64,000 bases of DNA from Nitrospirota bacterium (GTDB lineage: Bacteria; Nitrospirota; Leptospirillia; Leptospirillales; Leptospirillaceae). How positions within the stretch are numbered: position 1 is the stretch's first letter; the number at the start of each line of letters is the position of its first letter. The position numbers and the translations under genes were made by a program. The DNA is taken from positions 96,998-160,997 of the forward strand of contig JAJZHW010000002.1 of the NCBI GenBank assembly GCA_021810805.1. The letters run 5' to 3'. The notes under the pieces were generated by a model, which searched no databases, had not been told where the DNA came from, and was given only the letters and a program-made list of their open reading frames with translations. Shown piece after piece: positions 3-18,362 of the stretch.

Positions 3-2606
3 TCCGGGGCACTGACTTCTGCCTCTGGAACCTTCACGTCTTCGAATGTCGGGAGCAGTATCGGCGGGACGGTCAGCCTCTCGACCTCCAACCTCAATTC
101 CGGCTCTGGCACCGGGTTCTCCTGGTCGAACTACTCGCTTCCCACAACGTTCACGGGGGGCTCGATCACGGCTCTTCCCGTGACGGCGACGGCGAATACG
201 GCAAGCATGACGTACGGGGGAACGGTTCCTTCTTTGTCGGGGACGTTCTCAACGACCGGGCCGACGGGGGGCCTGACGAACCTGTCGGGAACCTGGTCGA
301 CGACGGCGACCTCGTCCACCAACGCGGGGAGCTACGGAATCACGTCGGGGAGCTACACCTACGGAGGTGGTGCCGTGGCGGGGGACTTTAGCATTGCCCA
401 GGCGTCCGGGAACACGACCGCCCTGACGATCAATCGGGCGGCACTCACCCTTACCGTCGGTTCGAACGGGATCGCCAAGGAATACGACGGAACCTCGAAG
501 GCCTTTCTGACGTCTAATCCGAACGGATATTTAGTCACCAACGGAGGAATTAAGCAGACTGTCGCCCAGAACGTGACCGTGTCCGGGTGGGTCACCGGTC
601 AGGGAGCGACGCTTAACGTGAACAACGGAACCTATTCAACTGGATCCTCCCCGAACGTGGGAAGCTCCTATAGTGTGTCGGCCAGCATATTAGCGAGTTC
701 GTTTGCGAACCTCGTCGGCTCCACCTCGATGTCTAACTACCAGATCGGTACGGTTCAGCTGATTAACGGCAATTCTTACGCGTTTTCCTCGTCGTCCGGC
801 GTCATCAACCCGGCGCCTCTCGGCGTGGCGATCTCGAACGCTCCCAGCAAGGTCTACGACGGGACAAACACGGCGACGCTCGGGTCGACGAACATGAGCT
901 TCACGGGTTTGGTGACGGGGCAGGGGATCTCTCTCGGCACGACCCCTAGCAATGCCTATTACACCGCGAGCTCGACGAATCCCACGAAGGTCTCCAACGT
1001 GGGGTCGGGGTACGGCGTCACGGCGAATGTGGCGTATTCGGATTTCTCCACGAGTGGTGGCGCGACGCTCTCGAATTACTCCATCGGGGGGGTTCAAATC
1101 GTTTCGGGAAAATGCTTTACCGTCTCGGCCTCGGGAGGCGCCATCACCCCCGCTACCCTGAACGCCACGGCCACCGCGGCTTCCATGACCTACGGCAGCT
1201 CCGCTCCCGCCCTTTCGGGAACGATCTCGAGCCCGACCATCACCTCGACAACCTCACCCTCCCTTTCCTCCCTCGTCACGGCGACAAGCTGGTCGACGTC
1301 GGCAACCAGGACGAGCAACGTGGGTTCCTATTCGATTACCCCTGTTCTCTCCTACGGGACGAATCTGGACGGTACGTCCGTGGTGGCCGGGGACTTTACC
1401 CTCGTCTCCGCATCGGGAAACGCCACCGCGATGAGCGTCACCCCGGCTCCGCTGACAGTGAGCCTCTCCCCCGTCAACAAGACCTATGACGGAAGCTCCA
1501 ATGCCTATGCGGTGGGCCAGGCGACCCTGGAGACGGTCAACGGTGTGACCCAGAGCCTTTCGCCGAACGTCACTCTTTCTGGTTTTCTCAACGGCAACTC
1601 CGCGACCTTCACCACGGCGACCGGATCCTATCTGAGCGGGGGGAGTTCGGTGGCGAACGTGGGGAACGGCTATACGGTCTCGATCCCGGTTGGGGCCGGG
1701 TCCTTCTCGGCGGGAAGCGGGACCCTGCTCTCCAACTACTCCGTCAACGGGGTCCAGCTGACCGGGACGAACAGCGCCACGGTCTCAGGAACAGGATCCA
1801 TCTCCCCTCTGTCCCTCTCCCTGGGTTCGACTGCCTCGAAGACCGCTGACGGGGGAGCGGCGATCGTCCTGAACGCCTCGAATACGACGATTTCCGGAAT
1901 GCCCACAGGACAATCCGCGAGCCTTGCCGGAAACGTCTCCGGGACCCTCTCCGCTGCAAGCGTCGGATCGGATCTTGGAGGAACCGTCGCGCTTGTATCC
2001 GGCGACCTGACCGGAAACGGCTCCTTCCTCTCCGCGCTTTCGGCGGGCGACTATATTCTGCCGACCGCATTTACCGGAGGAAGCATCCTGTCCCTTTCGT
2101 CGAGCGCCATAATTCCCGTGGCCCAGGTCAGCTCCTCGGTCGAGTTGGCCTCCCAGGCGACGACAGGTCCCTCCGACAGCGGAAATGAGGTCGCTCCCCT
2201 TCCGGCATTGGTCGCTCCGTCCTTCGGAAGCTTCGGGGCCTCTCTCGGGGGAGGAGGCGGGTTGAGCCTGGGGGATCTGTCCGACGACTCGTCGACCATC
2301 TTCGACATGAGCTCTGCGAATACGACCTACAAGTCGCGCTCCAAAGATCAAACGGTCCTGGCCGTCGACTCCGGTACCATCCAGCCCGTTGAGAGCAAGG
2401 CTGTCACCGTGTCCCGCTCCGGGAACGGAGGAGGGGATTCCGGCGTCATCACCCTCGACGGCCAAGCGAAGAACGTCAAGAGCCAGTCGGTCGAGGTTGC
2501 TCATTCGCTCACGTTGGCGGGGTCGGCGTCCGCTCCCTACTCGCTCCAGGTTCCGACCTTCCACGGATCTGGAAATGGCGTCTTCGAGAGCTCGGAGAGC
2601 CAGTGA
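3..2606 (+). CDS. Large secreted YDG/MBG-repeat (filamentous hemagglutinin-like) adhesin, C-terminal part; 5' end lies outside the window
   Basis: Frame is open from the window edge through 2606. Repeats with KEYDGT/KVYDGT/KTYDGS motifs alternate with MTYGG/MTYGS (MBG-type) units; Ser/Thr/Gly-rich. Confidence 0.85.
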   Translation, partial: SGALTSASGTFTSSNVGSSIGGTVSLSTSNLNSGSGTGFSWSNYSLPTTFTGGSITALPVTATANTASMTYGGTVPSLSGTFSTTGPTGGLTNLSGTWSTTATSSTNAGSYGITSGSYTYGGGAVAGDFSIAQASGNTTALTINRAALTLTVGSNGIAKEYDGTSKAFLTSNPNGYLVTNGGIKQTVAQNVTVSGWVTGQGATLNVNNGTYSTGSSPNVGSSYSVSASILASSFANLVGSTSMSNYQIGTVQLINGNSYAFSSSSGVINPAPLGVAISNAPSKVYDGTNTATLGSTNMSFTGLVTGQGISLGTTPSNAYYTASSTNPTKVSNVGSGYGVTANVAYSDFSTSGGATLSNYSIGGVQIVSGKCFTVSASGGAITPATLNATATAASMTYGSSAPALSGTISSPTITSTTSPSLSSLVTATSWSTSATRTSNVGSYSITPVLSYGTNLDGTSVVAGDFTLVSASGNATAMSVTPAPLTVSLSPVNKTYDGSSNAYAVGQATLETVNGVTQSLSPNVTLSGFLNGNSATFTTATGSYLSGGSSVANVGNGYTVSIPVGAGSFSAGSGTLLSNYSVNGVQLTGTNSATVSGTGSISPLSLSLGSTASKTADGGAAIVLNASNTTISGMPTGQSASLAGNVSGTLSAASVGSDLGGTVALVSGDLTGNGSFLSALSAGDYILPTAFTGGSILSLSSSAIIPVAQVSSSVELASQATTGPSDSGNEVAPLPALVAPSFGSFGASLGGGGGLSLGDLSDDSSTIFDMSSANTTYKSRSKDQTVLAVDSGTIQPVESKAVTVSRSGNGGGDSGVITLDGQAKNVKSQSVEVAHSLTLAGSASAPYSLQVPTFHGSGNGVFESSESQ

Positions 2607-3129
2607 TCCGAAGGGGCTTCCAGGATCTTTCAATCCCGGCAATGGGGATTCGCTCCGCTGATTGGGAGGATGAGAACCGTCTGGGTGACGAGCCACGCAT
2701 TCCCCACAACTCGGCAGGTGATTGAAATAAGGGGAGCCTTAAGCTCGGTCTCCAAAGGAAGGCAGAGAAGCCAGTTCTGTCGTTTTTTGCGTGCAGACGT
2801 TGACAGCGCTCCCTCCGGCATCCTGACTCCCCTGCCCCGTAAGCCCCTACTGTGAGCCGATCTTTTTTGAAATCCCGAAAAACGGGCGAGAGTTGCGTCT
2901 CTGAGACGCTCTTCCTGCGCCTTTTTTTCCTCATCGACGGGGAAGACATAACCGGATTTCCGCGGACCTCTCCTCGATTCCTTTTCTACCCCCGACCTCT
3001 TCGCAAGCCTTCGATCGCCCCGTCTTTCCCGGGGGAAAACCGTCAGAAATCTCAGGATCTGAACAGATTCGCCGTTTTGCCTTTATCGCCTCTTCTGCTA
3101 AGATGGGAGGTATCAGAAGGGGTGGCGCA

Positions 3130-3336
3130 ATGGTCTATGACTGGGTCTTTCTCTTGGTTGGCGGGTTCGGAGCGCTCTACTCGGTTCGCCTTCTTCTGCG
3201 CCACGAGCGGCGAGAAAAATGGGCGACCTATCTCTTTTCTTCCCTCCTTCTATTCCTTTGGGGCCTTTTTTCTCTCTCTCCCGCGCGAACCGGGATCCTG
3301 AAGGCTTTAAACCGAACCTTCCTCGGAAGCTCCTGA
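3130..3336 (+). CDS. Small hypothetical membrane protein
   Basis: ORF MVYDWVFLLVGGFGALYSVRLLLRHERREKWATYLFSSLLLFLWGLFSL... has two hydrophobic segments and sits directly upstream of glgC. Confidence 0.45.
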   Translation: MVYDWVFLLVGGFGALYSVRLLLRHERREKWATYLFSSLLLFLWGLFSLSPARTGILKALNRTFLGSS

Positions 3337-4644: not shown

Positions 4645-6807
4645 TTGAGCTCCCATATTTTGTTCCTGTGGCACATGCACCAGCCCTCCTACCTCGATCC
4701 CCTGACCAACGAAATGGTTCTTCCGTGGGTGAGGCTTCACGGGGTGCGAGGGTACTACGACATTCCCTTCATGGCGAGAAAGTTTCCCGAGATCCGGCAG
4801 ACGGTCAATCTCGTTCCCGTTCTTCTCGATCAGATCAAGGCCCTGGCCGACGGGTCGGTCGTCGACTCCTACCAGGTGCTTTCCCTTAAGCCGGCGTCCG
4901 ACCTCGACTTGGCGGACCGGATCTTCATGGCGAGAAACTTCTTCTCCTGTGCCTTCGAGACCATGGTCAAGCCCTATCCCCGGTACCTCTTTCTCTGGCA
5001 GAAAATCCAGTCGCGGCAGCCCGTCGCGGATGCCGACTACCAGAGAGTCGTTTCCGACATGAATGTCCAGGACTTTCTCGATCTCCAGATGTGGTTCAAC
5101 CTCACCTGGTTCGGCTACGGCGCCCGGAACCGCTATCCGGAGATAGAAGAGTGGATCGCCCAGGGGGCCAATTTTACCGAGGCCGAGAAGACCGCGCTCT
5201 TCTCCCTCCAGAACACGATCCTGAAGGAGCTGCTGCCTCTCTACAGGAAGCTTGCCGAAGACGGTCTGGTCGAGATCTCGACCTCCCCCTACTACCACCC
5301 CATCCTCCCTCTTCTGGTCTCGTCCAAGAGCGCCCGCCGGGCTCACCCCAACCTTCCCCTTCCCGACGAGTTCGCCTACCCCGAAGATGCCGAGGGACAG
5401 ATCTCCCGGGCCCTGGCCCGCCACGAAGAAATCTTCGGGATCCGACCCAAGGGAATGTGGCCCTCCGAAGGCTCGGTCTCCCCCGAAGTGGCCTCCATTG
5501 CCGCCCGTCAGGGGCTCACCTGGATGGCCTCCGACGAGGACATCCTCTACATCTCCCGCGACATGGCGGGAAAGGGAGGGGAGGGAACTCTCTATGAACC
5601 CTGGGAGATCCGCATCGGCGACGACAGGATCCGGATGGTCTTCCGGGATCGCAACCTCTCCGACCGCATCGGATTTTCCTATGCCCGCTTCAACGGCACC
5701 GAGGCGGCCCAGGATCTGATCGGGCAGATGGAGCAAATCTCCCGCCGGGAGGAAGGGGCGGGTCGGGAGGCCGTGATTCCCATCATCCTCGATGGAGAGA
5801 ATCCCTGGGAAGCCTATTCCGACGGAGGCTATCACTTCCTCAAAACGTTGTACGAGCGCCTTTCGACCCATTCGTTCCTCGGGACGAAAACGGTCTCCCA
5901 GGCCCTGGAGAAGGTTCCGGCGCGTCCCCTCGATCGGCTGGCCACCGGCTCCTGGATCAACCACGACTTCCGGATCTGGATCGGCCATCCCGAGGACAAC
6001 AAGGGGTGGAACTTCCTTCGTTCGACCCGACAGGCCTTCGCGGAGATTCTGGCGAAGGGATCGTCCGCCCCCGAGCAGATCGAAAAGGCCCGCCAGGAGC
6101 TTTATGCGGCCGAAGGTTCCGACTGGTTCTGGTGGTACGGGGACGACTTCAAAAGCCTCCAGTCGGGAGAGTTCGATCGCCTCTTCCGGATCCACCAGCA
6201 GAACGTTTTCCGGCTCCTGGGCCAGGTCCCTCCGGCGATCCTGAACGAGCCCGTCCGCCAGGCCGACCAGCCGGCCGGCCTCTCCCTTCCGGTGGATTTC
6301 ATCCGTCCGGTGATCGACGGCGAGGTCAGCCACTATTTCGAGTGGACCGGAGCGGGTCTCTACGACAACCACAAGCTCCAGGGGTCGATGTACCTTCGCG
6401 ACTCCCCCATCGCCTCCGTCTACTTCGGCTTCGACGAGGAGAAACTCTACCTGCGGGTCGACTTCGACTCCCACTACCGTCCGGAAGATCACCCCTCTCC
6501 CCGGCTCGACATCCGCTTCCTCGACCGGAAAGAGACGCGCTTTTGTCTCCCCCTCGTTCCCGGGGTGCGCGACGTTCCTCTCTCCTGCGGTGGGGATGGC
6601 ACGGAGGGGACCGCCCGGGTGGCCTACCAGAAGATTGTCGAGATCGCCGTTCCCTATGCGCTTCTCTCCCTCGAGGCCGGGGAGTGGATCGGCGCGATCC
6701 TCGAGCTTTACGAGGACAAGAAGATGATCGACCAGTGCCCTCGCGGCCATACGTTGTCGATCCAGATTCCCGATGACCAGTTTGTCAAATCGATCTGGAG
6801 GGTCTGA
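4645..6807 (+). CDS. Glycoside hydrolase family 57 protein (alpha-amylase/glucanotransferase-like)
   Basis: N-terminal LFLWHMHQPSYLDP, GYGARNRYPEIEEW, GMWPSEGSVSPEV (predicted nucleophile region), all typical of GH57. TTG start. Confidence 0.9.
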   Translation: MSSHILFLWHMHQPSYLDPLTNEMVLPWVRLHGVRGYYDIPFMARKFPEIRQTVNLVPVLLDQIKALADGSVVDSYQVLSLKPASDLDLADRIFMARNFFSCAFETMVKPYPRYLFLWQKIQSRQPVADADYQRVVSDMNVQDFLDLQMWFNLTWFGYGARNRYPEIEEWIAQGANFTEAEKTALFSLQNTILKELLPLYRKLAEDGLVEISTSPYYHPILPLLVSSKSARRAHPNLPLPDEFAYPEDAEGQISRALARHEEIFGIRPKGMWPSEGSVSPEVASIAARQGLTWMASDEDILYISRDMAGKGGEGTLYEPWEIRIGDDRIRMVFRDRNLSDRIGFSYARFNGTEAAQDLIGQMEQISRREEGAGREAVIPIILDGENPWEAYSDGGYHFLKTLYERLSTHSFLGTKTVSQALEKVPARPLDRLATGSWINHDFRIWIGHPEDNKGWNFLRSTRQAFAEILAKGSSAPEQIEKARQELYAAEGSDWFWWYGDDFKSLQSGEFDRLFRIHQQNVFRLLGQVPPAILNEPVRQADQPAGLSLPVDFIRPVIDGEVSHYFEWTGAGLYDNHKLQGSMYLRDSPIASVYFGFDEEKLYLRVDFDSHYRPEDHPSPRLDIRFLDRKETRFCLPLVPGVRDVPLSCGGDGTEGTARVAYQKIVEIAVPYALLSLEAGEWIGAILELYEDKKMIDQCPRGHTLSIQIPDDQFVKSIWRV

Positions 6808-8975
6808 TGAACCAGGAAAGAACCGATACACGGGCCACGATGGTCTTCGTCATGCACAACCATCAGCCCGCCGGAAACTTCGACCACGTCTTCCGGGAGT
6901 CGTTCGACCGGGCCTACCGCCCGACCGTCGAGCTTCTCTGGCAATACGAGGCGATCCACGCCTCCCTTCACTATACAGGCCCTCTTCTTGAGTGGATCGA
7001 GGCTCACGAGCCGTCTTTTCTCGATCTTCTCAAGAAGATGGTGGATCGTGGTCAGATCGAAATCCTGGGCGGGGGATTCTTCGAGCCGATTTTCTGCTGG
7101 CTCCGGCCGGAAGACCAGAGACGACAGATCGACCTCATGCGCCGGCACCTTCGGGAGCGCTTCGGACAAGGGGAGGGGGAGGGATTCTGGTTGGCGGAGA
7201 GGGTCTGGGAGACCGATCTGCCGGCAAGGCTCGCTCCCCTGGGCCTCTCCTGCGCCCCTCTCGACGACCATCACTTTCACCTGGCGGGGATCCCCGACGA
7301 CCGCCTTCACGGATACTACACCGTCAGCTGGGAGGGCCATCCCCTCAAGATCTTCCCCATCTCCAAGGATCTGCGTTACCTGATCCCCTTCCGCCCTCCG
7401 GAGGTGCTCCTCTCCTTTCTCGACCGCCAGGCGCGCGGAGGCAAGATTTTGACCTATGCCGACGACGGCGAGAAGTTCGGGGTCTGGCCCGCCACCTACA
7501 AATGGGTCTGGGAGGAGGGCTATCTCGAACACCTCTTTTCCCAGCTCAGCGCCCAAAGGGGATGGCTGAGGGTCGCTTCCATGGGAGAGATGGCCCGCGA
7601 AAGCGCTCCCACCGGGATCGCTGTCCTGCCCAACGCCTCCTACACGGAGATGATGGAGTGGGCGCTGCCGGCAAGGATCGGCCACACCTACCACCGGTGG
7701 CTCGAAAAATGGGAGCGGGAGGGGGCGGACGAGGATCTCCGGACCCTCTTCCGGGGAGGGATCTTCGAGAACTTCCTCGTGAAGTATCCCGACGTTCACC
7801 GCCTTTACCACCGGATGCTGCTCACCGGACGTTTCGTGGCGGAGGCCTATCCGGGGGCAACCCCCCCGGACTCCGTTCTCCTTCCCCATCTCCGGGCCCA
7901 GGGCAACGATGTCTACTGGCACGGTCTCTTCGGAGGCCTCTACCTCTCGAACCTCCGCCACGAAGCCTACAGAAGCCTTCTCGAGGCGGAAAGGGCGCTC
8001 GAAGAGGCCGGGAAGCTTCCCGTTCCGGCACGGCTTGCCGGGGATTTCGATGCCGACGGAGCGGAGGACCATTTTGTCAGGACGCGAACCTACAACCTCT
8101 GGATCACCCCCCGACGGGGAGGCTCCGTGCTGGAGTTCGACGACCGGACCACCGCTTTTCATCTGACCAACACCCTGACCCGCCAGGAGGAGTCCTACCA
8201 CATCCGCTTCCGGGAGGACAGGGAGCGGCAGAGTCAGGAGAAGGCGGGGCATCAGGAGGCCGGAGGGGGAATTCCTTCGATCCACGATTTGAACGCCGGG
8301 GCGGGCTCGGATGCCCTGGCCGGCATTGTGTACGACCGGCGCCCCCGCCGGGCCTTTTCGGAAGGGATCGCCCTCTCAGGGGCCTCTTCTGCAGATATTC
8401 TTGGGGGGGGATCGGTCTTTCTCGTCGACCTCGGGGAGGTGCCGGCCCGTCTCGAAGAGGCCGGAGAGGACCGACTGCGGTTTTCGCTCTCGGGAGCGCT
8501 TGAGGAACTTCCCTTGCGGCTCTCCAAGGAGTACCGTTTTCTTGCGGATCGCTTCACCGTCACTTACCGTCTCGACTCTCCCGGAAGCCCCTCCCTTCCC
8601 GAATCCTGGAAGGGGAAGAGGCTTTGGGTGGAGATTCCCCTCACCCTCCTTGCGGGACACGATTCCGGGAGGATCATTTCCGTTGAGGGACGGGGCGGGA
8701 CCGTCCTCTGGGATGAGCCGGGAGATTACGGTGCGGTGACGGGCTACCGGGGAGAAGACGCCTGGTCGAAGGCCGCCTTTCGGGTCCTCCTCTCGGGGTC
8801 GGACCGATTCCTCCACGGTCCCATCGAGACCGTCTCGCTCTCCGAGGCGGGGCTTGAAAAGACATTCCAGGGAACGCTGTTCATGCAGGGCTTCTCCCTC
8901 GACCGTCTCTTTGGCGAGGGGGGATCGATCACCGTCGTTTGCGGACCCGAATCAAGGAGCACCGTCCATGCCTGA
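6807..8975 (+). CDS. Glycoside hydrolase family 57 protein with C-terminal DUF1925/1926-like region (4-alpha-glucanotransferase/alpha-amylase type)
   Basis: FVMHNHQPAGNFDHVF N-terminus, GFWLAERVWETDLP, EKFGVWP. Start overlaps the previous stop (TGATG). Confidence 0.88.
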   Translation: MNQERTDTRATMVFVMHNHQPAGNFDHVFRESFDRAYRPTVELLWQYEAIHASLHYTGPLLEWIEAHEPSFLDLLKKMVDRGQIEILGGGFFEPIFCWLRPEDQRRQIDLMRRHLRERFGQGEGEGFWLAERVWETDLPARLAPLGLSCAPLDDHHFHLAGIPDDRLHGYYTVSWEGHPLKIFPISKDLRYLIPFRPPEVLLSFLDRQARGGKILTYADDGEKFGVWPATYKWVWEEGYLEHLFSQLSAQRGWLRVASMGEMARESAPTGIAVLPNASYTEMMEWALPARIGHTYHRWLEKWEREGADEDLRTLFRGGIFENFLVKYPDVHRLYHRMLLTGRFVAEAYPGATPPDSVLLPHLRAQGNDVYWHGLFGGLYLSNLRHEAYRSLLEAERALEEAGKLPVPARLAGDFDADGAEDHFVRTRTYNLWITPRRGGSVLEFDDRTTAFHLTNTLTRQEESYHIRFREDRERQSQEKAGHQEAGGGIPSIHDLNAGAGSDALAGIVYDRRPRRAFSEGIALSGASSADILGGGSVFLVDLGEVPARLEEAGEDRLRFSLSGALEELPLRLSKEYRFLADRFTVTYRLDSPGSPSLPESWKGKRLWVEIPLTLLAGHDSGRIISVEGRGGTVLWDEPGDYGAVTGYRGEDAWSKAAFRVLLSGSDRFLHGPIETVSLSEAGLEKTFQGTLFMQGFSLDRLFGEGGSITVVCGPESRSTVHA

Positions 8976-9972
8976 CCTCAGAAAGGACCCCATCGTCGGT
9001 CGATGGGTCATCGTCTCCACGGCCCGAAGCCGGCGTCCGGTCGACTACAAGGCCTACAAGAGCGAGTATCGATATCAGGTCTGCCCTCTTTGCGCCGGAC
9101 AGGAGGACAAGACGCCCCCGGAAGTCCTGGCCTATCGTCCCCAGGGCGGTCTTCCCAACTCTCCCGGATGGACCCTGCGGGTCGTTCCCAACAAGTTTCC
9201 CGCGCTCATGGTCGAAGGGAGCCTCGACCGCGAGGGCGTCGGCCTCTACGACAAGATGAACGGGGTGGGGGCGCACGAGGTGGTCATCGAGACCCCCGAG
9301 CACCGCAAGACCCTCTCCTCCTTTTCGGAAAAGGAGTTCGAGGATCTCCTGTGGGCCTACCGGGACCGGATCCTCGACCTGAAAAAGGACGCGCGGTTCC
9401 GCTACATCATGATCTTCAAAAACTACGGAGAGCCCGCCGGCGCCTCCCTCGAACACAGCCACAGCCAGCTCATCGCCCTTCCGGTCATTCCGACGGTGGT
9501 GATCGAGGAGATGCTGGGGGCCAAGTCCCACTTCGAGGAGAAGGAGCGCTGCATCTTCTGCGACATCATCCGGCAGGAGATCATGGACGGCTCCCGGCTG
9601 GTGGCGGAGAATCAGGAGTTCGTGGCGATCACCCCCTTCGCCTCCCGCTTTCCCTTCGAGGTCTGGATCCTTCCCAAGCGCCACGCCTCGTCCTTCCAGG
9701 AGGGGCAGAAATCCCAGTACGAGGCCATGGCAAAGATCTTCCTCGACGTGCTCAAGCGGCTCAACAAGGCCCTCATGAACCCTCCCTACAACTTCATCCT
9801 GCATACCGCCCCGCTCCAGGACAAGGCGTCGGACGACTATTACCACTGGCACTTCGAGATCATGCCGACGCTCACCCAGGTGGCAGGGTTCGAATGGGGG
9901 ACGGGGTTCTACATCAACCCGACCCCCCCCGAGGAGGCCGCCCAGTTTTTGCGTGAGATCACGATTCCGTAA
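8968..9972 (+). CDS. galT: GalT-like nucleotidyltransferase (galactose-1-phosphate uridylyltransferase / ADP-glucose phosphorylase family)
   Basis: DLRKDPIVGRWVIVSTARSRRP, CPLC and CIFC Zn pairs, LEHSHSQLIALP active-site-like motif, YHWHFEIMP. Confidence 0.85.
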   Translation: MPDLRKDPIVGRWVIVSTARSRRPVDYKAYKSEYRYQVCPLCAGQEDKTPPEVLAYRPQGGLPNSPGWTLRVVPNKFPALMVEGSLDREGVGLYDKMNGVGAHEVVIETPEHRKTLSSFSEKEFEDLLWAYRDRILDLKKDARFRYIMIFKNYGEPAGASLEHSHSQLIALPVIPTVVIEEMLGAKSHFEEKERCIFCDIIRQEIMDGSRLVAENQEFVAITPFASRFPFEVWILPKRHASSFQEGQKSQYEAMAKIFLDVLKRLNKALMNPPYNFILHTAPLQDKASDDYYHWHFEIMPTLTQVAGFEWGTGFYINPTPPEEAAQFLREITIP

Positions 9973-10090
9973 AGGATTTTTTTTCGCGATAGGCAGGGTC
10001 GCCCTTCCCGGATCTCCGGGCTTGGTAGGGGAGGGGACCGAAAGAAAAGACCATCCGTCCCAGGTGACGGCAATCCAAGGAGGATCCGCG

Positions 10091-11467
10091 ATGACCGGCA
10101 AGGCACAGGAAACGCTTTCTGACTGGCAAAAGCGCTATCGTTACGTGGCGGAGTTCCCGGGGGGAAGTCCCGCCGTCACCGATCTCCCCCGCTTTGTCCG
10201 GGAGTCTCTCGGCGAGGCGATGGACGATCTTCTTTTCCATCCCGTGGCCGACATCCGCTCCGCCGCCTTCCGCCTCATCCGGGAGGCCTTTGGCCGTTCG
10301 GGAGCCCGCATGGCCTCCATCGAACCCCTCTATCGCGCCATCGGACGGGGAGAGGAGAAGGGATTCACCGTGCCGGCGATCAATGTCCGGGGGCTGACCT
10401 TCCACACCGTCCGCCGCATCTTCCGGGCCATGAAAAAGATCGACGGTGGCCCCGTGATCTTCGAGCTGGCCAAGAGCGAGATCGGCTACACCTATCAGCG
10501 GCCGATGGAGTATGCCGCCCTGGTGATGGCGGCCGCCCTGGCCGAAGGGGTGACCGGCCCGGTCTTCGTTCAGGGAGACCACTACCAGTTCAGCGCCAAG
10601 AGCTACGCCAAGGACCCCGAGTCCGAAATCCTGGGGCTCAAGAAGCTCATCCAGGAGTCGATCGATGCCGGCTACCGCAACATCGACATCGATGCCTCCA
10701 CCCTGGTGACCCTCGAACCGAGCGACCTTCGGGACCAGCAGAGGGAAAACGGCCGGATGACGGCGCTCCTGACGCACTTTATCCGTCAGATCACCCCCGA
10801 CGGCTCCCAGGAGCCGGTCTCCGTGGGGGGCGAAATCGGAGAGGTCGGAAAGGAAAACTCCACTCCAGCGGAGCTCGATGCCTTCATGGAGGTCTATCGG
10901 GAGGAGCTGGCCCGCCACGATGGTCGGGCGACGGGGATCAGCAAGATCAGCGTCCAGACGGGAACCTCTCATGGGGGAGTCCCTCTTCCCGACGGCCGCG
11001 TGGCCCCGGTGAACCTCGACTTCGCCACCCTCGAGGCCCTGGGGGAGCGGGCCCGGAGCCGCTACCACATGGGGGGAGCCGTCCAGCACGGGGCCTCGAC
11101 CCTGCCCCCGGAGCTCTTCGATCATTTCCCAAAGGTACGGACTCTCGAGATCCACCTCGCCACAGGGTTCCAGAACGCCCTCTTCGACCACCCCTCCTTC
11201 CCCTCCGCGCTGAAGAAGGAGATGGAGGCCTACATGACCCGGGAGTTTGCCGGGGAGCGCAAGTCCGGAGAGACGGAGGAGCAGTTCTTCTACAAGAACC
11301 GGAAGCGGGTCTACGGCCCCTTCAAGAAGGCCCTTCTCGATCTTCCCGCCCCCGTGCTCGACCGGATCATGGACGACCTCGAAGCGAATTTTGTCTCTCT
11401 CTTCAAAAAGCTGGGCCTTGAAAAGACCGCCCCGGTTTTGGCCCGCCATTTCGGGAAGAATCGATGA
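10091..11467 (+). CDS. Class II fructose-bisphosphate aldolase family protein (long form)
   Basis: FTVPAINVRGLTFHTVRRIF, VFVQGDHYQF, GYRNIDIDASTLV, GGEIGEVGKENST, ISVQTGTSHGG match class II aldolase architecture. Confidence 0.8.
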   Translation: MTGKAQETLSDWQKRYRYVAEFPGGSPAVTDLPRFVRESLGEAMDDLLFHPVADIRSAAFRLIREAFGRSGARMASIEPLYRAIGRGEEKGFTVPAINVRGLTFHTVRRIFRAMKKIDGGPVIFELAKSEIGYTYQRPMEYAALVMAAALAEGVTGPVFVQGDHYQFSAKSYAKDPESEILGLKKLIQESIDAGYRNIDIDASTLVTLEPSDLRDQQRENGRMTALLTHFIRQITPDGSQEPVSVGGEIGEVGKENSTPAELDAFMEVYREELARHDGRATGISKISVQTGTSHGGVPLPDGRVAPVNLDFATLEALGERARSRYHMGGAVQHGASTLPPELFDHFPKVRTLEIHLATGFQNALFDHPSFPSALKKEMEAYMTREFAGERKSGETEEQFFYKNRKRVYGPFKKALLDLPAPVLDRIMDDLEANFVSLFKKLGLEKTAPVLARHFGKNR

Positions 11468-12258
11468 TCCGCACGCGCCCGGCGGCCTATACCTTTTGTC
11501 CGTGCGGAAGCGGGAAGAAGTACAAGTTCTGCTGCCGGAAATTCCCACGGAGAGGTCCCGTCTCCTTCTCCGAGGCCCACCGGCTCCTTTCGGCCCTCCC
11601 TTCTCCCCCGGTCGTCGCGAGCTTTTTGACGGAGGCCTACGAAAAAGACATGGGACTTGTCATGGCCACCGTGGTCCGGGCGGTTCCCGACGGGGGCTTT
11701 CTCGCAGTGGAGGCATTGGTGGACCGACTGCTTCTCGGGGTCAAAGACGTCAATTTTCGGATGGCGGCCTCCCCGGCCGATATCAAATGCATCCTCGCCG
11801 ACATCGAAATGATCACCTTCATGGAGGGCTACGCCGGTCGGGTGGCCAAGGAGGCCACGTTCGCTCCCGACGGGACCCTCGACCTCTCCTCGGAGGACTG
11901 GGAGAAGATCTACGAGGACAGTTCGGGAGATGTGGGAGACGTCACGATGAAAGCGATTCCCCTCGACTACGAAGAGGTGCGCGGCTTTGTTCTGGGAGCG
12001 ATCGACTTTGCTCGAAGCTACGGACAGGAGCCCCATGCGGAGTGGAAGTTCGCGAGCCCTGCCTTCGAACCGGACCGGTCCTACTCGACAAATTTCGAGT
12101 ACGGCCAAGAGGGAAAACCTCTCTATATCCAGGGTCCAAACGACGACCCTGGAAAGATTCTCGCGTCGCTTGAGAGGGCCCTGAGGGAAAAGGCCGACCC
12201 GCTCACCCCTTTCGAGGCTCCCAAATTCATCCTTAGCCTTCCCGGTTCTGCCCACTAA
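11464..12258 (+). CDS. SEC-C motif-containing hypothetical protein
   Basis: N-terminal YTFCPCGSGKKYKFCCRK (SEC-C zinc motif). Start overlaps previous stop. Confidence 0.75.
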   Translation: MIRTRPAAYTFCPCGSGKKYKFCCRKFPRRGPVSFSEAHRLLSALPSPPVVASFLTEAYEKDMGLVMATVVRAVPDGGFLAVEALVDRLLLGVKDVNFRMAASPADIKCILADIEMITFMEGYAGRVAKEATFAPDGTLDLSSEDWEKIYEDSSGDVGDVTMKAIPLDYEEVRGFVLGAIDFARSYGQEPHAEWKFASPAFEPDRSYSTNFEYGQEGKPLYIQGPNDDPGKILASLERALREKADPLTPFEAPKFILSLPGSAH

Positions 12259-12311
12259 AGCGCGACCCCTGTTGCCGCCGGCTCTTGCCTCGTGCGGAGA
12301 AAGGACACTTC

Positions 12312-13895
12312 ATGGAGACCCCCCGGGGAAATCTCGTCTTTGTGCTTCACGCCCATCTTCCCTATGTGCGCCACCCGGACCATTCGATCTTCCTCGAGGA
12401 GAACTGGTTCTTCGAAGGGCTGATCGAGACCTACCTCCCCCTTCTTGCCATGTTCGACCGCCTCGACCGGGAGGGGATCGGCTTTCGGATCACCATGACG
12501 CTGTCCCCCACGCTGGTCTCCATGCTGGAGGACCCGCTTCTCATGGGACGCTTCGAGGCCCGGCTCTCGCTTCTTCGGGAGCTGGCCGGACGGGAGACGG
12601 CCAGGACCCGGGGAGGGCCCTACGAGAAGATCGCGAGATTCTACGAGGGCCATCTGGCCTATCTCGAAGGGGTCTATCGCGAGGGGCTCGGCCGGGACAT
12701 TCTCGGAGGGTTCCGGCGCCACATGGACCGGGGAGCCCTTGAAGGGATCACCTGCGGGGCGACCCACGGCTACTTTCCCTTCCTGCAGGAGGTTCCCGGG
12801 TCGGTGGAGGCGCAGGTGCGGGTCGGGGTTTCGACCTTCCGCCGCGTCTTCGGTCGGGCCCCTCAGGGGATCTGGCTTCCCGAATGCGCCTACTACGAGG
12901 GGGTGGACCGCATCCTTCGCAAGGAAGGGATCCGCTTCTTCTTCATGGAGTCCCACGGACTCCTCTACGCCGACCCCCGACCCCCGGCGGGCGTCTATGC
13001 CCCCCTTGTCACTCCGGCGGGCGTCTGGGCCTTCGGCCGGGACCCCGACAGCTCCCGCCAGGTCTGGAGCGCGAAGGAGGGGTATCCGGGGGATCCCCTT
13101 TACCGGGACTTTTACCGGGATGTGGGCTACGACCTCGACTACGACTACGTCCGGCCCTATCTCCATACCGACGGCCCCCGGGGAATGACCGGGCTGAAAT
13201 ACCACCGGATCACGGGCGCCACCGACCAAAAGGAAATCTACGATCCGGAATTGGCCCGGGAGAGGGTGAAGGATCATGCCCGGGACTTCGTCTCCCGGCG
13301 GGAAGCCCAGGTCCGGGAGCTCTCGGGGACCCTAGGTATCGATCCCGTCATCGTCTGTCCTTACGATGCGGAGCTTTTCGGGCACTGGTGGTTCGAGGGG
13401 GTGAACTTCCTCGAGGAGGTCTACCGGGAGGTCGCCCGGCGCCGGACCCTTGCGGTCCACACTCCGGTCGAGCTTGTCAAACAGGGGATTCCGGCTTCGG
13501 GGGGAGACCCCGAGCCCTCCTCGTGGGGCGAGAACGGCTATTACGAGTTCTGGATGAACTCGACCAACGACTGGATCTACGCCCCTCTCTTCGAGGCGGC
13601 GCGAGAGATGACCCGCCTGGCCGCCCACTCGGGACGCGTGTCGGGACAGGATCGGGAGATTCTCAATCAGATGGCCCGGGAGCTTCTTCTGGCCCAGAGC
13701 TCCGACTGGCCCTTCATCATGACGACCGGGACCATGATCGACTATGCCGTCGACCGGATCAAGAACCATCTCTACCGTTTTTGGGTTTTGCGGGAGATGG
13801 TCGTGGGAGGGCGCTACCGGGAGGATGTCTTTCAGGAGATCCGGGGGAAGGACGCCCTCTTCCCCGAAATCGACTTCTCCGTCTTTCTTCCCTGA
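12312..13895 (+). CDS. GH57 family 1,4-alpha-glucan branching enzyme-like protein (DUF1957 type)
   Basis: GNLVFVLHAHLPYVRHPDH, GIWLPECAYYEGVDRIL, YDAELFGHWWFEG, LLLAQSSDWPFIMTTGTM are characteristic of GH57 branching enzymes. Confidence 0.92.
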   Translation: METPRGNLVFVLHAHLPYVRHPDHSIFLEENWFFEGLIETYLPLLAMFDRLDREGIGFRITMTLSPTLVSMLEDPLLMGRFEARLSLLRELAGRETARTRGGPYEKIARFYEGHLAYLEGVYREGLGRDILGGFRRHMDRGALEGITCGATHGYFPFLQEVPGSVEAQVRVGVSTFRRVFGRAPQGIWLPECAYYEGVDRILRKEGIRFFFMESHGLLYADPRPPAGVYAPLVTPAGVWAFGRDPDSSRQVWSAKEGYPGDPLYRDFYRDVGYDLDYDYVRPYLHTDGPRGMTGLKYHRITGATDQKEIYDPELARERVKDHARDFVSRREAQVRELSGTLGIDPVIVCPYDAELFGHWWFEGVNFLEEVYREVARRRTLAVHTPVELVKQGIPASGGDPEPSSWGENGYYEFWMNSTNDWIYAPLFEAAREMTRLAAHSGRVSGQDREILNQMARELLLAQSSDWPFIMTTGTMIDYAVDRIKNHLYRFWVLREMVVGGRYREDVFQEIRGKDALFPEIDFSVFLP

Positions 13896-13926
13896 TATCC
13901 CCGGTTCTGGCCGGAGTCCACAGAGC

Positions 13927-14298
13927 TCAGGGCTTTCGTTCGGCCATGAAGCTCTTGAAGCGCTCGAGCTCGTCAAGGGAGGCCCGGAAGCTGTCGAGCT
14001 CTCCCATGAAGGGTCGAAGACGTTCGACCTCGGCGATCACCCCTGAAAACCGCTCCATCTCCGCCATGAGGGATTTCATCCGGTCCTGCTCGGAGAGGAA
14101 GAAGGTCCGGAACCGGTCCATCTCGGCCAGCAGAAGCTTGAATTTGTCGAGCTCGGCCATGAAGCTCCGGAATCGTTCGATCTCCACCTTGAGCCCCCGG
14201 AAGCTGTCGAGCCCGAGAAGGGAGGGACGAAGGGATTCGACCTCTCCCATGAAGGAAGAGAATCGGTCGAGGGAGTTGGGGTTCTTTCCTGCATCCAT
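13927..14298 (-). CDS. Small protein built of ~11 tandem 10-residue alpha-helical repeats; function unknown
   Basis: MDAGKNPNSLDRFSSFMGEVES/LRPSLLGLDS/FRGLKVEIER/FRSFMAELDK/FKLLLAEMDR/... Good RBS on the minus strand (ACAAGGAGAAAAAAATG). 30-bp periodicity is visible in the DNA. Confidence 0.8.
   Translation of the reverse strand: MDAGKNPNSLDRFSSFMGEVESLRPSLLGLDSFRGLKVEIERFRSFMAELDKFKLLLAEMDRFRTFFLSEQDRMKSLMAEMERFSGVIAEVERLRPFMGELDSFRASLDELERFKSFMAERKP
13930..14262 (-). repeat. ~30-bp tandem repeat array encoding the decad repeats
   Basis: On the + strand, units such as TCGGCCATGAAGCTCTTGAAGCGCTCGAGC, TCGGCCATGAAGCTCCGGAATCGTTCGATC and TCTCCCATGAAGGGTCGAAGACGTTCGACC keep 30-bp phase, with one 3-bp insertion. 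Confidence 0.8.
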
Positions 14299-14340
14299 TT
14301 TTTTCTCCTTGTCAATCGATACTTTTGATTGTCTGTCGAA

Positions 14341-14375
14341 AAACTCCTTACATCAAATTATCTTGTAAGGAGTTT
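14341..14375. promoter_or_regulatory. Perfect 12-bp inverted repeat between divergent genes (possible operator or hairpin)
   Basis: AAACTCCTTACA-(TCAAATTATCT)-TGTAAGGAGTTT, between the minus-strand decad gene and the plus-strand GH15 gene. Confidence 0.6.
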
Positions 14376-14579
14376 CAAAAATAAAAATCATCGGATTCAT
14401 TATACACCTTTTTTCCGATTTGTGTGTCGGGATCCCTCGGGACGAAACGGGGAGCCTTTGTCGGCAACGGCAGTGTCTCGAATCTCTCAAGGACCTCTTT
14501 CCGAAAGCGAGCCAATGATGCACGATGCCGAATATCCTGCCTGTCAGGGGGCGGGATCAATCCCACGGGAGCCCCTTCG

Positions 14580-16925
14580 ATGAAGGCCCCCGAAGCCCGG
14601 GGAACCCGGGCGGTCTGGAGTCCGGCCGCCAAGGAGATGGTGGGAGGATCCCTGGGACCTTCCCGCCTCTGGTTCACCCTCTCCCAGGGAATCATCTCCG
14701 AGGTCTACTCTCCCCGGGTCGACATTCCCGGCGTCAAGGATCTGGGATTCATCGTGGCCGACGACCGGGGATTCTGGGTGGAGCTCAAGGGGGCAAAAAA
14801 CGTCCAGGTCGAGGCGGCCGGGGAGGGGATCCCGGCGGTGACGATCCGCCACACTCATGACCGCTTCCTCTTCACCTGTCGGGTGGTGGCCGCCCCCGCC
14901 CGGGACGTCCTTCTCGTCGAGTACCGTCTCGTCTCCGCCGATCCCCTTCGGGTCTATCCCCTCCTCTCCGCCCGGCTCGGGGGAGAGGCCTTCGGCAATG
15001 TGGCCCGTGTTCTCTCCTGGCACGGGAGACAGTTTTTGACGGCCTCCCAGGGCCCCTTTTCCCTCTCCCTGGGAGGGATGGGGTCCGGGGGCAAGGAGCT
15101 CTTTACGCGACTCTCCTGCGGCGAGACGGAGGAGAGCGACGGATGGCAGGATTTTGCCCGCCACGGGCGAATGGTCTGGAGCTGGGATTCGGCCGGTCCG
15201 GGGCAGGTGGCCCTGACGGGAGAAGGGGGGCCCTCGGGGACGCTGGCCCTGGCCTTTGCCGCAAGCCCCGAGGCCGCCTCGACTCTCTCTCTTTCCGCCT
15301 TGGCGGAGGGCTTCGAGAGCCAATGGGAGGAGCAGGTGGCCCTGTGGAAGGAGTGGCAGGAGAGCCTTCATCTTCCCCCGCGGATGACGGCACTCCAGAG
15401 GAAGGTCTACCGGACCTCGGCCATGGTGCTGAAGGTCCACGAGGACAAGACCTTTCCCGGAGCTCTCATCGCCAGCCTCTCCATCCCCTGGGGCGAGGCC
15501 TCCGACAGCCGGGGAGGCTACCATCTCGTCTGGAGCCGGGATCTCTCCGAGAGCGCCGGGGCGGCGCTGGCCATGGGCGACCGCGATCTGGGCCGGAGGA
15601 TCCTGGCCTATCTCCTGGCCACCCAGCAGGAGGACGGCCACTGGCTTCAGAACCAGTGGCTGGGGGGCAAGCCCTACTGGCAGGGGCTCCAGCTCGACGA
15701 GGCCGCCTTTCCCGTCCTGTTGGCCGCCTGGCTGGCGCGGGAGGGGTCCCTGGATCTTGAGGGGGTTCGGCCCATGATCGTGCGGGCGCTCTCGTTCATC
15801 ATCCGGGAGGGGCCGGTGACGGGCCAGGACCGATGGGAGGAGGATCCGGGGATCAACCTCTTCACCCTGGCGGTGGCGATATCCGCGCTGGTGGACGGAT
15901 CGGCTCTCCTCGATGCCGAGGAAAGGGAGGCCGCCCTGTGGGTGGCCGACACCTGGAATGCCAGCCTCGAGCGGTGGTGCTGGTCGGGGGAGACCGACCT
16001 TGCCAGACGGATCGGGGTCTCGGGCTACTATCTCCGGGCCGTTCCGGAGGCGATTCTGGAGGATCTGGCCGCCAAGGGGCTGCATCTACTCATCAAGAAC
16101 CGCTGCCACGATCCGGGGCTTCCCGCCTGCGACCAGATCAGCACCGATTTTTTTCAGCTGGTCCGGTTCGGGCTAAGGTCGCCCGAGGATCCCTTCATTC
16201 GGGAGTCCCGCAAGGCCGTCGACCGTCTCCTCCGGGCCGAGACGCCCGCCGGGACCGCCTGGTACCGCTACAACGGAGACGGCTATGGGGAGCACGAGGA
16301 CGGAGCCCCGTTCGACGGGACCGGCCGCGGACGTCCCTGGCCTCTTTTGGCCGGAGAGCGGGGCCATGTGGCGGTGGTGGCGGGAGAGAGCGCCCGGGGG
16401 TATCTCCGGGACATGGCGACGATGGCGAGCCCTCTGGGGCTTCTTCCGGAGCAGGTGTGGGACGCCCCGCCCCTTCCGGAGCGAGGCCTCTATCCCGGGG
16501 CCCCCACGGGATCGGCCATGCCCCTGGTCTGGGCCCACGCCGAGTTCATCAAGCTGGCCCACAGCGAATGGAAAAAAAAGCCCGTGGACCGTCCGGAGGC
16601 CACCTGGACCCGCTATGGAGGGGTTCGCCCGGAGGTCGGCTGGCGGCTCTGGCGCCACCGCCACAAGGTCCGGACTCTGGAAGAAGGGCGGGAGTTGCGA
16701 TTTCTCTGGTCGAGACGGGCCATGGTCCATTGGGGGGTCGACGGCTGGAAGGATCCCCGAAATACAGAGTCGAGTCCTCTGGGAATGGGGTTCTGGGGGG
16801 TCGCCCTCCCCGTTCGGGAGCTCTCCCGGGGGCAGGCAATCGTCTTCACCTTCTACTGGATCGACGAGGACCGCTGGGAGGGGGAGGATTACCGGGTGGA
16901 GGTTGTGGGGAACGAAGAAAACTAA
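14580..16925 (+). CDS. Glycoside hydrolase family 15 glucoamylase / glucan 1,4-alpha-glucosidase
   Basis: SLGPSRLWFTLSQGIISEVYSPRVD, SIPWGEASDSRGGYHLVWSRDLSESAGAAL, QDGHWLQNQWLGG-type motifs of bacterial GH15. Start could be the upstream GTG at 14424. Confidence 0.88.
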   Translation: MKAPEARGTRAVWSPAAKEMVGGSLGPSRLWFTLSQGIISEVYSPRVDIPGVKDLGFIVADDRGFWVELKGAKNVQVEAAGEGIPAVTIRHTHDRFLFTCRVVAAPARDVLLVEYRLVSADPLRVYPLLSARLGGEAFGNVARVLSWHGRQFLTASQGPFSLSLGGMGSGGKELFTRLSCGETEESDGWQDFARHGRMVWSWDSAGPGQVALTGEGGPSGTLALAFAASPEAASTLSLSALAEGFESQWEEQVALWKEWQESLHLPPRMTALQRKVYRTSAMVLKVHEDKTFPGALIASLSIPWGEASDSRGGYHLVWSRDLSESAGAALAMGDRDLGRRILAYLLATQQEDGHWLQNQWLGGKPYWQGLQLDEAAFPVLLAAWLAREGSLDLEGVRPMIVRALSFIIREGPVTGQDRWEEDPGINLFTLAVAISALVDGSALLDAEEREAALWVADTWNASLERWCWSGETDLARRIGVSGYYLRAVPEAILEDLAAKGLHLLIKNRCHDPGLPACDQISTDFFQLVRFGLRSPEDPFIRESRKAVDRLLRAETPAGTAWYRYNGDGYGEHEDGAPFDGTGRGRPWPLLAGERGHVAVVAGESARGYLRDMATMASPLGLLPEQVWDAPPLPERGLYPGAPTGSAMPLVWAHAEFIKLAHSEWKKKPVDRPEATWTRYGGVRPEVGWRLWRHRHKVRTLEEGRELRFLWSRRAMVHWGVDGWKDPRNTESSPLGMGFWGVALPVRELSRGQAIVFTFYWIDEDRWEGEDYRVEVVGNEEN

Positions 16926-17192
16926 TTTTGGCCATAAGAAAATCTGTCTTTCCCCCTCCCGATTGTCTTGAAACAAACGCCGTTCGTGTGATACGCTCCC
17001 TATCAATTCTCGGTTCCGACCGGCGCCTTTTCCAAAAAAAACAGACTGGGGTCCTTCTTGAGATGGATGTCATCCGGTTGTGAGAATCTTTCGGCGGGAG
17101 GAGACTCGGGCTTGGGGATGAGCTTCCCTGTTCGGGCATATGCGTGGAGAGTTTCCTTGTAAGAAATGGCCGGAGACTCTTAAAAAATTTTC

Positions 17193-17247
17193 TTTCATAG
17201 GGTATGAAAGCTTTCATGGAGAATGAAACGTTTCATAGGCTATGAAA
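17193..17247. promoter_or_regulatory. Symmetric multi-palindrome operator-like array
   Basis: TTTCATAgggTATGAAAgcTTTCATggagaATGAAAcgTTTCATAggcTATGAAA: four dyads, symmetric about position 17220, directly upstream of the RND-MFP gene. Confidence 0.75.
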
Positions 17248-17264
17248 GCTTCTGAAAGCAGGCT

Positions 17265-18362
17265 GTGGGACCAAATCTAACGCGTCGCAAAAAACTTATC
17301 GGTCTTCTGGGACTTCTCGCTGTCCTCCTGATGTCCTTTTTTCTTTTTCGACATCTCTCCGGAAAAGAATCGAGCGCCGTTTCTCCCGAAATGGCCTCTT
17401 CGCCCCCGGCTCCTGCCGCATTCAACCCCACCCGCTTTCGCACCGGCCACGTCAAATATCGCCATTTCGAGCTCTGGACGACCATTCCGGGTGTCATTCA
17501 TGGCTTCCGCAAGACGGTGGTCTACGGCCATGTTCCCGGTTACCTGAAGTTTTTGAATGTGGACAAGGGCGACTGGGTCACCCGGGGTCAGGTTCTGGGC
17601 TACATCTACGATCCGGAGCTTTATCAGAGCTGGCAGAAGGCCCTGGCCGAGGCGGCCATCGCCCACATCACCTTCCTGCGCAAGCTCCACGTCTGGGAAG
17701 GGGACCATCGGGTGATTTCCCTCCAGCGCGTCCAGATGGCCGAAGCCCGCTGGAAGGAACGGGAAGCCCGGGCAGGATATTATCGTTCTTTGGTCCGCTA
17801 CAAGACGATCGTGGCGCCTTTCACCGGAGTTGTCACCCACCGTTATGTCGACCCCTGGAACCTCGTCTCCACGGGGACGGGGGGGACCACTCCCGCCCTT
17901 CCCATCGTCAAGATCGAGGACATCGACACGATGCGTCTTTACGTGGGGGTTCCCGAACACTTCGTGCGCTTTGTGGTCCGCGGGATTCCGGCCGAGCTCT
18001 CCGCCCAGGGGCTTCCCGGGAAGATTTTCAAGGCCCGTGTCACCCGCTATGCCTTTCGCCTCGACCCCGAGACGCGGACGATGCGTACCGAGATCGACGT
18101 CGCCAACCCCGATCACCTTCTCATGCCCGGGATGTACGTCAAGGCCCGGATCCGTCTCCATGTCTATCCCCATGTTCTCTCCGTCCACCACATGGCGGTG
18201 ATCGAGGAGCGCCACGGAAATTTCATCTACGTTCTCGAACATGGGCTCAAGAAAAAGCGGCCCATCGTGGTGGGCTATCGAAACGGAGACTACACCGAGA
18301 TACTCCAAGGTCTTGACGGATCGGAGACCGTTCTCGTCAAGCTCCACAAGACCGTATTCTAG
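17265..18362 (+). CDS. RND efflux periplasmic adaptor (membrane fusion protein, HlyD/AcrA family)
   Basis: N-terminal TM anchor, GYLKFLNVDKGDWVTRGQVLGYIYDPEL lipoyl-like segment, APFTGVVTHRYVDPWNLV. GTG start is tentative. Confidence 0.88.
   Translation: MGPNLTRRKKLIGLLGLLAVLLMSFFLFRHLSGKESSAVSPEMASSPPAPAAFNPTRFRTGHVKYRHFELWTTIPGVIHGFRKTVVYGHVPGYLKFLNVDKGDWVTRGQVLGYIYDPELYQSWQKALAEAAIAHITFLRKLHVWEGDHRVISLQRVQMAEARWKEREARAGYYRSLVRYKTIVAPFTGVVTHRYVDPWNLVSTGTGGTTPALPIVKIEDIDTMRLYVGVPEHFVRFVVRGIPAELSAQGLPGKIFKARVTRYAFRLDPETRTMRTEIDVANPDHLLMPGMYVKARIRLHVYPHVLSVHHMAVIEERHGNFIYVLEHGLKKKRPIVVGYRNGDYTEILQGLDGSETVLVKLHKTVF

Follow-up and report, generated by a model that had tools for sequence, protein, structure and literature searches.

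A tandem decad-repeat protein confined to one genus of the Nitrospirota: a candidate high-twist helical rod

Coiled coils are described as having periods of about 3.33 to 3.9 residues per turn, and 10/3, seen in the form of single stammers, is taken as their lower limit (PMC4786415). The reason given is that one stammer is enough to force a short 3-10 segment into the helix, and that nonads depart from the helix altogether; the Thermosinus protein Tcar0761, with 14 consecutive nonads, is an alpha/beta coiled coil (PMC4786415). A decad with 4-3-3 spacing is present in PDB entry 3aqb (PMC9369452). In open-access papers, for which our literature search was incomplete, isolated decads were found but a protein made of tandem decads was not. 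Here we describe such a protein, encoded within a 64,000-nucleotide stretch of DNA from a Nitrospirota bacterium (the window), and compare it with these systems. The coordinates of the gene, its repeats and its neighbours are collected in Table 1.

Table 1. Features of the decad-repeat gene and its surroundings (window coordinates)
Feature	Position	Strand	Details and basis
Decad-repeat protein CDS	13927..14298	(-)	123 aa, stop included; translation, orthologues, dN/dS
Leader MDAGKNPNSLDR	14263..14298	(-)	12 residues; M1, G4, K5 and L10 invariant (family alignment)
Eleven tandem decads	13930..14262	(-)	Residues 13-123; hydrophobic positions 1, 4, 5, 8
Unit 2	14203..14232	(-)	Contains proline, as [LIV]RP; corresponds to unit 9; unit-unit scores
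Unit 6, FRTFFLSEQDR	14080..14112	(-)	Middle unit, 11 residues; family alignment
Unit 9	13990..14019	(-)	Contains proline, as [LI]RP; corresponds to unit 2
Shine-Dalgarno sequence AAGGAG	14305..14310	(-)	6 nt 5' of ATG; window sequence
Stem-loop	14341..14375	(-)	Presumed 5' leader; perfect 12-bp arms AAACTCCTTACA / TGTAAGGAGTTT
-10-like element GGTGTATAAT	14399..14408	(-)	Upstream-region alignment; putative promoter activity
GH57 branching-enzyme gene	12285..13895	(+)	Glyco_hydro_57 + BE_C; convergent neighbour of the decad gene
GH15 gene	14580..16925	(+)	Glucodextran_N + GH15; divergent from the decad gene; one clade only

An initial annotation of the window had described this minus-strand open reading frame as encoding a helical protein of 10-residue repeats, and the translation quoted there was reproduced. 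The layout it proposed also held: residues 13-123 form an unbroken series of 11 decads, of which the sixth is longer by one residue. Within the decad, positions 1, 4, 5 and 8 are hydrophobic, positions 2 and 10 are basic, positions 7 and 9 are acidic, and positions 3 and 6 are mostly small. The passage from unit 6 into the next unit (SEQDR-MK) is invariant across the homologues, and units 4-7, which carry the insertion, are the best-conserved part of the protein family. Unit-unit scores showed that units 1-4 are similar to units 8-11, and MAFFT superposed decad fragments on the proline-bearing unit. All 13 homologues lack Trp and Cys, and each has at most one Tyr.

The self-identity of the window protein peaked at lags of 10 (z 4.4), 20 (z 7.0) and 30 residues (z 4.4), and each of these values was reached by 0 of 2,000 shuffles. 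We also computed a hydrophobic periodogram over periods of 3.1-4.05, averaged over the family of 13 homologues with the inserted residue removed. The peak lay at 3.34 (power 6.5), with a power of 6.57 at exactly 10/3, and the highest power given by any of 2,000 shuffles over the whole range was 2.18. The 10-residue period is thus real, and every homologue carries 11 consecutive units with core positions 1, 4/5 and 8, which places the protein among decad-type (10/3) helical repeats. In contrast, the power was 0.35 at the 7/2 period of a canonical heptad coiled coil and 0.13 at the 11/3 period of hendecads or 11-mer amphipathic repeats, for which no Pfam family was listed at E <= 0.1. These values bear out the proposal that the repeat is neither a heptad nor an 11-mer.

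A 30-bp period in the DNA had been noted as well. Identity at lag 30 was indeed seen, but it provides no independent evidence, since random synonymous recoding of the protein gives about as much: relative to such recoding, z was 2.0 for the window and -0.5 to 1.1 for three orthologues. As lag-30 identity is not clearly above that expectation, we dropped the 30-bp period as a sign of recent amplification; for the same reason, the amplification of the repeat appears to be old.

Comparison of the orthologues gave dN/dS values of 0.02-0.22 (Nei-Gojobori), and the open reading frame is a genuine gene whose frame is under strong purifying selection. Antisense frames are open in places too, as would be seen if the open reading frame were spurious, a side effect on the antisense strand of repeats in GC-rich DNA. 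This reading is scarcely credible in view of the dN/dS values, of the 13 species that keep one frame, the insertion and a length of 122-124 residues, and of the conserved start, Shine-Dalgarno sequence and -10-like motif. The start codon is conserved in the family, and a purine-rich GGAG-type site lies upstream of the gene in all homologues. The motif GGTGTAT within GGTGTATAAT is common to both clades, most of the other clade having GGTGTATCCT; it sits approximately 100 nt or more 5' of the ATG and may serve as the promoter of the decad gene. The stem-loop in the window sequence had a folding z of -2.65. A related hairpin was present in close relatives only and the other clade was without it, so we dropped the possibility of a conserved leader RNA; an Rfam scan of window positions 12000-17300 gave no credible match.

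Of 41 genomes searched, 13 of the 14 belonging to the genus contained an orthologue (E <= 3.1e-42), and none of the 27 others did. In the fourteenth genome (G010, 70% complete), the contig ends inside the neighbouring branching-enzyme gene, whose match covers only contig bases 3-488 and residues 4-165 of 536; because the contig end cuts the adjoining gene, the absence of the decad gene from this genome cannot be judged. Loss of the frame in close relatives, an outcome that the initial annotation had named as telling against its proposal, was not found, the frame being intact in all 13 genomes that have the gene. The homologues are 59-97% identical and 122-124 residues long, and they share the 11 units as well as the insertion. 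Their records are those of "Nitrospirae bacterium" MAGs, and the source genus is probably an uncultured one next to the iron-oxidiser Leptospirillum.

A scan of 84,980 species with two peptide patterns, which distant decad proteins could escape, returned 12 loci, all from the same genus. The whole-family profile, run against 296 genomes of the phylum, recovered the 13 homologues and one weak outlier (G160, E 0.005), and a search with the single protein gave one weak match in a sister genus (G015, E 0.03); no tandem decads were detected at either locus when the six-frame open reading frames of the fetched loci were scored with a decad matrix. Matches to a fragment profile were confined to the genus among 198 genomes of the phylum. 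No relative was found among phages and plasmids (tblastn, E <= 0.1) or in the viral contigs searched. Scans of Pfam, NCBIfam and PHROGs produced nothing above threshold, and the weaker matches were to helical families of various kinds. The match to Bacteriophage protein K (PF12283) scored 21.4 bits over 26 residues, against a Pfam cut-off of 25 bits, and the Pfam matches listed at E <= 0.1 included no phasin family. A confident match to a known coiled-coil or phasin family, which the initial annotation had also named as telling against its proposal, was thus not obtained. Profile searches of the PDB, started from the entire family or from decad fragments, had a best E of 0.16, and Foldseek returned 0 matches to the PDB, a lone helix holding little fold information. 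The decad protein is restricted to one genus, and no family was found elsewhere in the searches made.

The decad gene is convergent with the GH57 branching-enzyme gene in 12 of 12 orthologous loci. The GH57 and GH15 flanks given in the initial annotation are both real in the window, but only the former is constant. GH15 occurs at the site only in the window's clade (L018, L019 and L021; L020 is too short to tell), and in the other clade the efflux genes HlyD and AcrB are the first to be recognised beyond the decad gene. In L006, the one locus of that clade inspected for an open reading frame between the decad gene and the efflux genes, a DUF4384 protein with a lipoprotein-like start (positions 2127-3227) lies where the window has GH15. 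The site adjoining the decad gene therefore varies in content between the clades.

The branching-enzyme gene is preceded on its 5' side by two further GH57 genes, a nucleotidyltransferase gene of the GlgC/GlmU type and an aldolase-like gene. The three GH57 genes form one cluster (window positions 4645-13895), one with alpha-amylase/4-alpha-glucanotransferase C-terminal domains and one with a branching-enzyme C-terminal domain. Two further open reading frames of the alpha-glucan cluster have no Pfam match above cut-off; that of 317 aa (9003-9956) is kept through the family, and that of 264 aa (11464-12258) is variable. Elsewhere in the window, an 808-aa open reading frame (180-2606) carries MBG and YDG domains, which are typical of large repetitive surface proteins. 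Five sister-genus genomes contained the alpha-glucan block with neither the decad gene nor a detectable remnant at the site; at the sister-genus loci L056 and L057, HlyD is the next recognised gene, within ~0.6 kb of the branching-enzyme gene. Since these blocks are without it, either the decad gene arose at this position in the genus's ancestor or other lineages have lost it.

A nearly all-helical fold was predicted by AlphaFold2, which supports the earlier description of the protein as helical. With only 12 closely related sequences as input, the window protein was modelled with helices at residues 9-22 and 30-121 (mean pLDDT 83, at least 90 over residues 41-120), and an orthologue from clade 2 was modelled as one helix at residues 7-121 (mean pLDDT 85). 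The pTM was approximately 0.4 for both single-chain models, as expected for a lone rod. In the window protein, the helix break at residues 23-29 falls around the proline of unit 2; a hairpin was absent from both models.

Plotted at 108 degrees per residue, the four hydrophobic positions would lie within one arc, from 324 to 72 degrees, with the small residues (positions 3 and 6) opposite and both charges on each flank, where R/K2 is paired with E/D9 and E7 with R/K10. Across the 13 proteins, position 7 and the following decad's position 2, five residues apart (i to i+5), were of opposite charge in 110 cases and of like charge in 0, and the counts were the same for position 9 and that position 2, three residues apart (i to i+3). 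The i to i+5 relation is the g-e' spacing of parallel coiled coils. What these signs suggest is only that parallel, in-register pairing would be favourable by charge, and the pattern is not independent evidence, because it follows from the repeat consensus. For a continuous decad coiled coil on a 3.63-residue helix, the computed pitch was ~50 A and the pitch angle 30 degrees for a dimer or 38 degrees for a trimer, compared with 12-15 degrees for heptads; on a normal alpha-helix, the hydrophobic stripe turns by approximately -80 degrees per unit. Because the required pitch angles are steep, the helix would have to be over-wound throughout, unless the decad packs otherwise than as a rope.

The initial annotation had suggested that the protein might coat or scaffold a polysaccharide granule or a membrane. 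The decad gene adjoins the alpha-glucan cluster at every orthologous locus, and in the window this cluster has three GH57 genes, the GlgC/GlmU-type nucleotidyltransferase gene and GH15, as would suit a protein that coats or organises an alpha-glucan (glycogen) granule. However, conservation within the genus extends to entire neighbourhoods, and the linkage therefore says little about such a role; the site in the other clade is without GH15, the decad gene is convergent with the branching-enzyme gene and not in its operon, and sister genera keep the alpha-glucan cluster without the decad gene. Starch- and glycogen-binding modules use aromatic platforms, and the 13 homologues, with no Trp and almost no Tyr, offer next to nothing for sugar stacking. 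With GH15 linked in one clade and aromatic residues so scarce, the position of the gene is all that speaks for a glycogen coat, which we consider improbable. An amphipathic-helix coat of a membrane or a hydrophobic granule, in the manner of phasins, perilipin or synuclein, would agree with tandem amphipathic repeats that are rich in Phe, Met and Leu and have basic residues flanking the hydrophobic face. Straight amphipathic helices, however, need approximately 3.6-3.67 residues per turn, and the power was 0.12-0.13 at 3.6 and 11/3, compared with 6.6 at 10/3. Since the period is 10/3 and not ~3.6, the hydrophobic stripe winds round the helix, and its rotation of some 80 degrees per unit fits a surface coat poorly. 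There was also no Pfam match to phasin, apolipoprotein, perilipin or LEA families, and we give this second kind of coat a similarly small chance.

Alternatively, the protein may be a helical partner of one or more other proteins, possibly the branching enzyme, on which it would dock either as one long helix or as a helix folded back at the two RP units. Each decad would then turn its hydrophobic patch in a new direction, and the rotating stripe suits a helix surrounded by partners. The AlphaFold2 break near the unit-2 proline of the window protein, the resemblance of its two halves and the constant linkage to the branching-enzyme gene point the same way, but sister genera have the branching enzyme without the decad protein, and neither AlphaFold2 model shows a hairpin. 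We regard docking of this kind as rather unlikely.

The reading that we favour, tentatively and at a little under an even chance, is that of a cytosolic, self-associating, high-twist helical rod or scaffold of 11 decads, specific to the genus. Along the helix, the decads would present hydrophobic residues on one face, charges on both flanks and small residues at the back, and helices would pair in parallel and in register as a dimer or trimer. The product would be a short, strongly left-handed helical rod, ~160 A long, which may serve as a spacer or scaffold; oligomerisation, handedness and role are what we infer from the repeat. Strain could be eased by local over-winding (3-10 helix), and the extra residue in the middle unit would lift the mean period to 3.36, easing it further. 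The 13 homologues, down to 59% identity, do not differ in the number of units, in register or in the unit-6 insertion, and strong purifying selection acts on the gene, which argues that the exact geometry matters. In favour of the rod count the 10/3 power beyond that of shuffles, the conserved register, the AlphaFold2 helix, the opposite-charge pairs, the lack of Trp and Cys, and the conserved start signals. Against it count the steep pitch, the place of 10/3 at the limit of coiled coils, the derivation of the charge pattern from the consensus, the narrow AlphaFold2 input and the pTM of 0.4. A natural continuous decad (10/3) coiled coil, that is, an extended, strongly left-handed multi-helix rod with over-winding spread over the 11 units and relief at its mid-point by the conserved extra residue, is possible but somewhat unlikely; it would, to our knowledge, be the first natural one.

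The 11-mer repeats of apolipoprotein, synuclein, perilipin and LEA proteins are, like the decad protein, tandem amphipathic helical repeats, but they have a period of 11/3 and a straight stripe, at which period the decad protein has a power of 0.13 (6.6 at 10/3), and they gave no Pfam match. Phasins are likewise small, helical and amphipathic; the decad protein differs by its strict decad and has no Pfam phasin match. Tcar0761 shares with it a natural origin, many near-identical units and a period below the residues per turn of heptads. Nonads, however, have 9 residues, beta-layers and an [aliphatic]-A-T-K motif, whereas the decad protein has a 10-residue unit, is without the motif and is predicted to be fully helical; it is therefore not a nonad alpha/beta coiled coil ([aliphatic]-A-T-K-[polar]-[DE], PMC4786415). 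Stammers and isolated decads, like the decad protein, place 10 residues over 3 turns (3.33) with 3-4-3 or 4-3-3 core spacing, but stammers are lone local discontinuities in heptad coiled coils (PMC4786415), whereas the decad protein has 11 decads in a row and no heptads. It is also lineage-restricted, and no ancestor was traced at the corresponding position in sister genera. With 123 residues, no Cys or Trp and strong purifying selection, it is a compact test object, and a structure would tell continuous 10/3 winding from another use of the repeat, for instance in a helix with binding partners on every side. If true, a continuous decad coiled coil would extend the known architectures to their supposed lower limit of periodicity.
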